Source: a bacterium (GTDB lineage Bacteria; Patescibacteriota; Saccharimonadia; Saccharimonadales; UBA4665). From it: DNA of 47,035 nucleotides. This document shows, one piece after another, positions 1 to 2,373 of the stretch. The position numbers were made by a program, and so were the translations under genes. Location of the stretch: contig JAJYDV010000005.1 in assembly GCA_021777375.1 (NCBI GenBank), forward strand, positions 15,789-62,823. The letters are read 5' to 3'. The notes beneath the pieces are model-generated. The model was not told where the DNA came from. It did no database searches and worked only from the letters and a program-made list of their open reading frames with translations. Numbering within the stretch: position 1 is the stretch's first letter; each line of letters begins with the position of its first letter.

Positions 1-480
1 CGATTCTGGGGCTAAACCTATGGCTTGAGGCATGGCGTTAACAAGCTTGACGGCATCAATACCTAAAGCCGTGTAATTATCCATCTTTTCTCTGACCGAT
101 TCTGGGGCATAGCCTATGGCTGAAGGCATGGCGTTAACAAGCTTGACGGCATCAATACCTAAAGCCGTGTAATTATCCATCTTTTCTCTGACCGATTCTG
201 GGGCTAAACCTATGGCTTGAGGCATGGCGTTAACAAGCTTGACGGCATCAATACCTAAAGCCGTGTAATTATCCATCTTTTCTCTGACCGATTCTGGGGC
301 ATAGCCTATGGCTGAAGGCGAGGCGTTAACAAGCTTGACGGCATCAATACCTAAAGCCGTGTAATTATCCATCTTTTCTCTGACCGATTCTGGGGCAAAG
401 CTTATGGCTGAATGCGAGGCGTTAACAAGCTTGACGGCATCAATACCTAAAGCCGTGTAATTATCCATCTTTTCTCTGAC
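1..480 (-). repeat. Five 96-bp tandem repeats inside the mTERF-like gene
   Basis: Units begin at 1, 97, 193, 289 and 385, with a partial sixth from 481 to about 526. The period is exactly 96 bp (32 codons). About 66 bp of each unit is identical in all copies; the differences fall in a block of about 30 bp encoding the variable residues. Two block versions alternate in the first four units (Gln/Leu type at 1 and 193, Ser/Tyr type at 97 and 289). Confidence 0.97.
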
Positions 481-894
481 CGATTCTGAGGCATAGCCTA
501 TGGCTGAAGGCATGGCGTTAACAAGCCTGGGAGCGTCTAAGCCAAAGGAATGCATGGTACGCTGAGTGCGGATAAAGGTATCTAACGGAATAAGAGTGGG
601 CTGTGTGATCTCATAAGAATCAACAAGTCCAGCAGATAAACCAATAAACTCTAGGAAACTTCGGCGTGCCGAAACTACATCTTGCCATTTATCTTCATTA
701 ACTGGCTCGTCAAGTCTAAGTGAACCAGTAATAATAGTGTCGTTCAAAGACTGGCGGAGTACTGGATCATACATCCATTGAGGATCTACTCCATAAACTT
801 CCAGCCATGGCTGGTCTCCAGGAGTTAGACAGGTCGGTTCCTGAGCATGCCGAACGTTAGTCTCTGAACTTTGTTCGTGATTGCGGACAGTCAT
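1..894 (-). CDS. Tandem 32-residue mTERF-like helical repeat protein (3' end outside window)
   Basis: Open from ATG at 894 down to base 1 (298 codons) with no stop, so the C-terminus lies outside the window. Residues 1-105 are non-repetitive; then one divergent repeat and five near-identical 32-residue repeats follow, each containing REKMDNYTALGIDAVKLVNA and then a variable stretch ending in AIG-x-AP. The spacing of LGI, the LV pair, the Pro and the following helix resembles the mTERF motif, a two- to three-helix nucleic-acid-binding repeat known mostly from eukaryotic organelle proteins; this assignment is inference from pattern. A possible -10 (TACAAT) lies 6 nt before ATG and there is no ribosome binding site. 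Alternatives are another helical solenoid family (TAL-like, HEAT-like). Function unknown. Confidence 0.7.
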   Translation of the reverse strand, partial: MTVRNHEQSSETNVRHAQEPTCLTPGDQPWLEVYGVDPQWMYDPVLRQSLNDTIITGSLRLDEPVNEDKWQDVVSARRSFLEFIGLSAGLVDSYEITQPTLIPLDTFIRTQRTMHSFGLDAPRLVNAMPSAIGYASESVREKMDNYTALGIDAVKLVNASHSAISFAPESVREKMDNYTALGIDAVKLVNASPSAIGYAPESVREKMDNYTALGIDAVKLVNAMPQAIGLAPESVREKMDNYTALGIDAVKLVNAMPSAIGYAPESVREKMDNYTALGIDAVKLVNAMPQAIGLAPES

Positions 895-953
895 TAGTAT
901 ATTGTATCACTTTAGTTAGCTTTTTACAAGGGGGCAGTATTTCGCTGTTAGCC

Positions 954-2316
954 CAAATTTAAAAGTGGAGTAATAAGGTGTACTTAGCTATGCTTCTCTC
1001 TGTAAAGGAGAATACCTTATGAAACAACTACATAAACAATTTAGTGACGAGGAGATAAAACAATATCTTAAGTGGTATGAGACAAGGGTTATGACTAAGT
1101 CTGAGGTATTAACCCTACTTGGCATAAAGGACAGTAGGTTCTATGTATTGCTTGCTCAGTATATAGATAAACCGAAACAGTTTAGCGTGGCATACAATCG
1201 CCTAAAAGCTACCAGGAGTTTACCGCCTAAAGTAGTCAAACAAATCCGTAGAGAGCTAGAAACAGAAAGAGGTTATGTGACTAATCCTAATATGTCAATC
1301 ATGTTCTACAACTACTCAGCTATTCGTGATGTGGTTGAGGAAGAAACGGGATACAATCTGTCTGCTCAGACAGTCATCAACTATGCCAAGAGGTGGGGAT
1401 TCTACCTAGAAAGACCGAAACGTAAGGCTCACACCCGAGAGGTATTAACTGATTCAGTTGGCATGTTGCTACAGCATGATGCTAGCTCACACCAATGGAG
1501 TCCCTATGCCTTTAGACCAGACGGTAAGCCGCTGAAGTGGTCACTCATTACCACATTAGATGACCACAGCCGTAAATTACTCTATGCAGAGTTATTTGAA
1601 CACGAGTCCGCTTGGGCACATATACAGTCGTTAGAATCAGTAGTTTTACATAATGGGGTTGGTGTCCAGTATTACTCAGATAATCACGCTATCTTTCGGT
1701 ATGTGACAAACCGTGATGCCAATGGTCTGAGTGCTGCCAATTACCAGAGGGTTCTTGACACTGATGACATTGCCCCGCAGTGGAAACAAGCTGTTGAAGC
1801 CAGTGGCATGAAAGTAACCTACGCACTTAGTCCTGAAGCCAAAGGTAAGATTGAGCGACCATACCGATGGTTACAGGATAGACTTGTCAGAAGATCAGCC
1901 AGAGAGCATGCCAAAAACATAGATGATGTTAGACGCATACTCTACCATGAGGTAGATAGGTACAATAACCGAGCTGTGCATAGCACTACTGGTGAGATAC
2001 CGAGTATTAGGTTCAGTAATGCAGTGAATGATGGTAGGTCAGTGTTTAGGCCATTAGACCTTACTAAAGCTAAACCGCCAGTAACTTCAACTAGGGATAT
2101 ATTCTGCCTTAGGACTGAACGCAAAGTTAACGGTTACGGAAAGATATCTTTCAACAGTTTACAGATTAGTGTCCCAGGCAATCTTCCTGATGGAACACCT
2201 GTAGCCCTGCATATTATTCCAGATCAGACAATAACTGAAGTAAGGTTTCTTAGAAACAATACGGTACTTGGATACCAGCAGATACCAACACCAAGACAAC
2301 TCCAGTTTTAAATTTG
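954..2316 (+). mobile_element. Complete insertion sequence with imperfect terminal inverted repeats
   Basis: A single transposase gene is bounded by imperfect inverted repeats at about 954-981 and 2288-2316. Both ends start with CAAATTTAAAA read inward, continue with TGGAGT, and share GGTGT further in. The transposase stop codon lies inside the right repeat. No clear target-site duplication is visible. The element sits between the helical-repeat gene and pilC. Confidence 0.75.
1019..2311 (+). CDS. DDE (rve-type) transposase
   Basis: Encodes 430 residues. An N-terminal helix-turn-helix region (about 1-130) precedes an integrase core with a D-D-E triad: Asp in LQHDAS (about 153), Asp in YYSDN (about 219), and Glu in GKIERPYRW (about 278). 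A small C-terminal beta domain follows (about 345-430). The layout matches stand-alone rve-family transposases of the IS481/ISNCY type; the exact family is not certain. The start ATG at 1019 follows AAAGGAG about 8 nt upstream. No frameshift or stop is seen, so the element may be active. Confidence 0.85.
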   Translation: MKQLHKQFSDEEIKQYLKWYETRVMTKSEVLTLLGIKDSRFYVLLAQYIDKPKQFSVAYNRLKATRSLPPKVVKQIRRELETERGYVTNPNMSIMFYNYSAIRDVVEEETGYNLSAQTVINYAKRWGFYLERPKRKAHTREVLTDSVGMLLQHDASSHQWSPYAFRPDGKPLKWSLITTLDDHSRKLLYAELFEHESAWAHIQSLESVVLHNGVGVQYYSDNHAIFRYVTNRDANGLSAANYQRVLDTDDIAPQWKQAVEASGMKVTYALSPEAKGKIERPYRWLQDRLVRRSAREHAKNIDDVRRILYHEVDRYNNRAVHSTTGEIPSIRFSNAVNDGRSVFRPLDLTKAKPPVTSTRDIFCLRTERKVNGYGKISFNSLQISVPGNLPDGTPVALHIIPDQTITEVRFLRNNTVLGYQQIPTPRQLQF

Positions 2317-2373
2317 TGATGCTACTGTTTTAATTTTGAGTTAACATATCGATATTCGCTTGGCTGGTTATTT

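Follow-up and report, generated by a model that had tools for sequence, protein, structure and literature searches.

A tandem-repeat mTERF-family protein of Saccharibacteria with variable residues around the motif proline

Sequence and fold comparisons support assignment to the mTERF family of the gene product encoded at the start of the window (the whole 47,035-nucleotide stretch of bacterial chromosome analysed here, G000:C14:15789-62823). The source genome is that of a saccharibacterium, a very small bacterium of the parasitic type. Our favoured reading, to which we give a probability of roughly 60%, is a prokaryotic mTERF-fold solenoid that likely wraps double-stranded DNA and acts as a sequence-specific regulator or roadblock, its target being read out by unit.

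Gene architecture and repeat array

The mTERF-like open reading frame is open at its 3' end, running off base 1 of the window on the minus strand (Table 1). TRF places a 96-bp (32-residue) tandem array at window positions 1-526, with 5.5 copies and 93% matches, and five complete units in the ESV register occupy positions 7-486. This confirms the five or more 32-residue repeats reported in a preliminary description made from the sequence alone. Ten N (L005:7780-7789, corresponding to G000:C14:15779-15788) directly adjoin window base 1 inside the array. On the other side of this gap the array continues, unchanged in orientation, for two more full repeats; a C-terminal domain comes next, and the reading frame ends at a stop codon at L005:7173 (P0001). 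Hence, the scaffold gap lies within the array, the gene is longer than the window ORF and the true number of units is at least 8. At least seven full ESV-register units are visible in G000, together with a first unit (nt ~487-543) that is more diverged than the others. The seven full units from both sides of the gap show a mean pairwise DNA identity of 95%, in agreement with the near-identity described previously. The N-terminal helical domain is conserved across orthologues whatever their repeat number. The protein fragment encoded in the window has an acidic pI of 4.7, and full-length orthologues range from near neutral to acidic.

Table 1 Features of the mTERF-like gene and the adjacent insertion, in window coordinates.
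Feature	Position	Strand	Basis
mTERF-like tandem-repeat gene, 5' part, 298 aa	1..894	-	ORF; PF02536 35.9 bits
N-terminal helical domain, aa 1-117	544..894	-	alignment of orthologues; AF2 helices
First, diverged repeat unit (FGLDAPRLVNAMPSAIGYAS region)	487..543	-	translation
Repeat unit 1 (ESVREKMDNYTALGIDAVKLVNASHSAISFAP)	391..486	-	variable codons 409-417, 397-402
Repeat unit 2 (..NASPSAIGYAP)	295..390	-	
Repeat unit 3 (..NAMPQAIGLAP)	199..294	-	
Repeat unit 4 (..NAMPSAIGYAP)	103..198	-	
Repeat unit 5 (..NAMPQAIGLAP); following unit cut by scaffold gap	7..102	-	
Promoter-like hexamers TTGTAA-17-TACAAT, upstream of mTERF-like gene	901..929	-	weak, consensus match only
Insertion sequence	954..2316	+	18-nt inverted repeats 954-971 / 2299-2316
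Transposase ORF	1019-2311	+	ISNCY/IS481-like, below curated cut-offs
16-bp exact direct repeat (ATATCGATATTCGCTT) flanking insert	2346..2361	.	other copy L005:6970-6985

Relationship to the mTERF family

The preliminary description had likened the repeat spacing to the mTERF motif and proposed comparison with the PF02536 profile. PF02536 (mTERF; gathering cut-off 23.1 bits) was found to be the sole Pfam family to score above its cut-off with the window fragment, at 35.9 bits. A full orthologue (P0005) scores 57.8 bits, a diverged paralogue (P0007) 62.7 bits and P0011 122 bits, with P0010 (18.1 bits) and P0014 (19.4 bits) below the cut-off. The mTERF motif is defined by proline at position 8 and leucine or another hydrophobic residue at positions 11, 18 and 25 (PMC11417379). 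Proline is present in six of seven G000 units (histidine in the other), with isoleucine at 11, valine at 18 and tyrosine at 25, and the same motif is present in the arrays of G775 and G308. The likeness in spacing is thus upheld by both profile score and motif.

When a profile of nine family members was compared with all PDB chains, 11 of 12 matches at E<=1 were mTERF proteins, each of the matches to mTERF entries being individually weak (E 0.014-0.06). Single proteins searched against the PDB with phmmer gave no mTERF protein and one weak match to a 'CAP REPEAT' chain; hence, within the PDB, mTERF kinship surfaced only by profile or fold comparison. Weak matches to many Pfam, NCBIfam, PHROG and PADLOC models were rejected, as most had no stretch passing alone or lay far below cut-offs. 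They can be explained by scores adding up across near-identical units. P0007 and P0012, which are paralogues without a tandem array, have no such NCBIfam or PHROG matches, yet still match mTERF.

AlphaFold2 (AF2) modelling of the complete 523-residue G008 orthologue gave a mean pLDDT of 84.8 and a pTM of 0.60, one of five models being confident (pLDDT 84.8 vs ~60 for the other four). The model displays a regular three-helix unit with helices of 13, 7 and 5 residues. A Foldseek comparison of this model with the PDB returned 11 matches at E<1, all from the mTERF group with probability 1.00 and seven of them at E<=0.001, one chain (6z1p_BY, from the Tetrahymena mitoribosome) being placed in the group by inference and not by name. 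The top match is DNA-bound MTERF1 (E 4.8e-5). TM-scores to MTERF1/3 are moderate, at 0.28-0.58 by target, the value for MTERF3 being 0.58. Neither a TALE nor a HEAT protein appeared at E<1, so that the structural check of a full-length protein against mTERF, TAL and HEAT solenoids, as previously suggested, singles out the mTERF group. The model therefore supports a predicted mTERF-type fold, with three-helix units stacked in a superhelical solenoid. When the window fragment was modelled by itself (pLDDT 70, pTM 0.48), the fold search gave no match, which is uninformative rather than negative given a cut fragment with few relatives.

The fold matches include MTERF4, which acts on the mitoribosome, and the mitoribosome chain from Tetrahymena, and could indicate that the solenoid binds RNA or the ribosome instead of DNA, with the variable loop reading RNA or rRNA. 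Plant mTERFs act on RNA, as in intron splicing, and one relative (L106) sits between genes reading as nusG and rplK. However, the closest fold matches are DNA-bound MTERF1 structures, the bacterial pTERFs that have been assayed bind DNA (PMC11417379), and a patchy distribution with variable unit number is unlike that of a conserved ribosome factor. We consider binding to RNA or the ribosome unlikely, and favour DNA.

The family shares with human MTERF1/3/4 and the plant organelle mTERFs the PF02536 profile, the P8/11/18/25 motif, the three-helix unit and the predicted superhelical solenoid. In contrast to the eukaryotic proteins, in which the motifs are diverged and interspersed, it is bacterial and has 1 to at least 10 tandem, near-identical units that are homogenised at the DNA level, as well as N- and C-terminal domains of its own. 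Eukaryotic mTERFs are nuclear-encoded and organelle-targeted, whereas the present gene lies on a bacterial chromosome; these are traits of the eukaryotic branch and not of the mTERF fold.

mTERF proteins, spiral repeat proteins with which mitochondria grip DNA, were long held to be eukaryotic, and the existence of bacterial members with canonical motifs matters for the question of the fold's origin. The view that the family is described mainly from eukaryotes, repeated in the preliminary description, needs updating since bacterial pTERFs were published in 2024. These tandem mTERF-like proteins, which carry mTERF motif annotations, have 3-11 units and come mainly from Clostridia/Bacillota MAGs (Hu et al. 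2024, NAR; PMC11417379). pTERF1 binds specific DNA with a Kd of 1.87 nM, two pTERF members have different motifs, and pTERF1 is reported to be without the conserved mTERF motif positions (PMC11417379). The family described here has prokaryotic tandem mTERF-like repeats in common with pTERFs, its units mostly falling within the 3-11 range (P0010 has one). It is set apart from the published pTERF description by the P8/11/18/25 motif, its occurrence in Patescibacteria and the homogenised unit frameworks combined with hypervariable groove positions. The literature searched contained no paper linking mTERF with Saccharibacteria. The bacterial tandem kind is known from pTERF; what is new is a Saccharibacterial variant of bacterial mTERF that combines canonical motifs with TALE-like hypervariable positions.

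Variable positions around the motif proline

In G000, the seven units agree at 27 of 32 codons, even at synonymous sites, and every difference between units falls at P-1, P, P+1, P+4 or P+5 relative to the motif proline. These five positions were fixed beforehand and then tested in four other arrays, for which a share of ~0.155 of the nonsynonymous differences is expected. The observed share was 0.61 in G008 (P 0.004), 0.56 in G001 (P 0.058, not significant alone), 0.27 in G308 (P 0.013) and 0.41 in G775 (P 0.002), and the enrichment across the four pooled arrays has a permutation P of 8e-5. G008 and G001 belong to the same genus as the window genome, and their unit types may share ancestry with it; G775 and G308 are more independent.

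In G008, the remainder of the unit shows a pN of 0.028 and a pS of 0.309, while pN at the five positions reaches 0.225. The corresponding values for G775 are 0.085, 0.441 and 0.338. Judged from these substitution rates, the unit framework in G008 and G775 is under purifying selection, which argues against an expansion devoid of function. Such a young expansion without selected function, or an assembly artefact, would have recent duplication account for the few differences, and could be suspected from the near absence of synonymous differences between G000 units, the interruption of the array by a scaffold gap and the rarity of the gene. Against it stand the selection seen in the older G008 and G775 arrays, with their higher pN at the five variable positions, the open reading frames of similar arrays in five genomes and the conservation of the end domains. 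Functionless expansion or artefact is disfavoured and, in our estimation, very improbable.

In HMMER alignments, F243 and R350 of MTERF1 fall at P+1 and F322 falls at P+4, within the loop that lines the DNA major groove, the residue numbering being anchored by the F243A and F322A crystal variants. When MTERF1 is bound to DNA, its motif prolines run along the major groove and R350 makes a double hydrogen bond with a guanine (PMC4705650). The alignment of the variable positions with these residues suggests they are the ones an mTERF solenoid would present to DNA, and we infer that the positions varying in G000 are probably those facing DNA. Their coincidence with MTERF1 contact positions lends extra support to the earlier proposal of a modular nucleic-acid binder. 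At the variable positions S, Q, M, N, G, Y, F and L predominate, where MTERF1 uses arginines.

We propose that an N-terminal helical cap, tandem three-helix 32-residue units and a C-terminal cap would form a solenoid that most likely wraps double-stranded DNA via the major groove. The proline loop of each unit (P-1, P, P+1, P+4, P+5) would be presented to the bases, such that the order of unit types may set the target sequence and their number the target length. Framework identity would be kept by recent duplication or gene conversion, with the groove-facing residues kept diverse. The cellular role is presumably that of a sequence-specific transcription regulator or roadblock, making this a candidate regulator in Saccharibacteria with a testable mechanism.

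In TALEs, helical repeats of a similar length are nearly the same apart from a handful of hypervariable positions, and their number changes. The present family resembles TALEs and TALE-likes (STAR, Bat and others) in these respects by analogy only: the TALE RVD loop lies at positions 12-13, while the unit described here has three helices and variable residues that flank a proline. The TAL_effector Pfam model had no match in the window fragment at E<=10, nor among orthologues, paralogues and relatives at E<=0.01, and as the PDB fold search likewise contained no TALE, membership of the TAL effectors was rejected. More tentatively, and at somewhat less than even odds, Patescibacteria might possess an independent TALE-like modular DNA code on an mTERF scaffold, in which unit types defined at P-1/P+1/P+4/P+5 would read bases, and duplication, deletion and shuffling of units, together with relocation of the gene, would give the protein new targets in different lineages. 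Arrays in which the differences between units are confined to groove-facing positions offer natural experiments for reading an mTERF recognition code, as for TALEs, and could yield a compact programmable DNA-binding scaffold.

Distribution, unit number and genomic setting

The family profile has matches in 11 of 93 genomes of the window's family, and in 13 of 393 genomes drawn from the order (a draw that overlaps the 93). Across the phylum, PF02536 exceeds its cut-off in 2 of 380 genomes, the window's own included. In another class, one of 86 genomes (G308, L062:4111-5667) has an mTERF tandem-repeat protein scoring 122 bits, its array built of 33-residue units. The contigs carrying orthologues are labelled Candidatus Saccharibacteria or bacterial MAGs, and homologues in other Saccharibacteria, which the preliminary description had recommended looking for, thus exist. 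Viral contigs, phages and plasmids yielded no family relatives; this, together with the lack of a viral fold match, led us to reject a mobile-element or viral origin.

Two kinds of gene occur in the window's genus. Those of the first kind have near-identical repeats (G000, G001 and G008) or are short forms (G002 and G016); the second is a diverged, non-homogenised paralogue found in G002, G005, G010 and G000. In G000 the latter is split between contigs C9 and C3 with overlapping ends (L006:5431-6456 and L066:1-630), and the two pieces together appear to be one diverged mTERF-like paralogue. Orthologues keep the N- and C-terminal domains, with the unit count ranging from 1 to at least 10: the G117 orthologue (P0010) has a single unit, those of G002 and G016 two or three and that of G008 eight full units plus the first one, while in the truncated G001 gene nine units are full and the ends are partial. 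G775, from another family of the order, has tandem arrays too, as does G308.

In six congeners, pilC is directly followed by the major pilin gene. G000 has an insert of at least 3.1 kb between the two (window 895-2361 and L005:6970-10150), comprising the mTERF-like gene and an insertion sequence. Other orthologues lie in unrelated neighbourhoods, and the mTERF-like gene therefore appears to move between genomic sites. We dropped the idea that the gene works with type IV pili, as its place among the pilus genes results from an insertion peculiar to G000 and is thus no guide to function.

The location in a type IV pilus cluster had also been one reason to consider that the solenoid binds protein partners (pilus, host-surface or phage), its variable face being under diversifying selection; helical solenoids frequently bind proteins, and the window fragment is acidic. 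Yet that location is peculiar to G000, with pilC and pilin directly adjacent in the six relatives and the other orthologues elsewhere, no signal peptide was seen by inspection, and the variable face corresponds to the groove that holds nucleic acid in mTERFs. Protein binding is accordingly judged improbable, and DNA remains the preferred partner.

Several further loci were noted. G775 contains two tandem mTERF-like gene copies with different unit numbers at separate loci (L104:3227-4804 and L105:3247-4380). An mTERF-like gene at L106:3316-4356, from another family of the order, is flanked by genes that look by eye like nusG and ribosomal protein L11/L1 genes, and is encoded on the strand opposite to theirs; at L063:4263-5663 an mTERF-like gene scoring 43.9 bits is directly upstream of genes that look by eye like dprA and topA. 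Downstream of the diverged G000 paralogue are a WhiB-family gene (Pfam Whib, 69 bits) and a response-regulator-like gene. Other repeat proteins were also seen: one with SAEGLKLPEIV... units (L062:1075-3213) adjoins the G308 mTERF gene, and a different tandem-repeat protein with units around 'VAELGLPSDATWDDI' (L022:6427-7173) lies ~3 kb from an mTERF-like orthologue.
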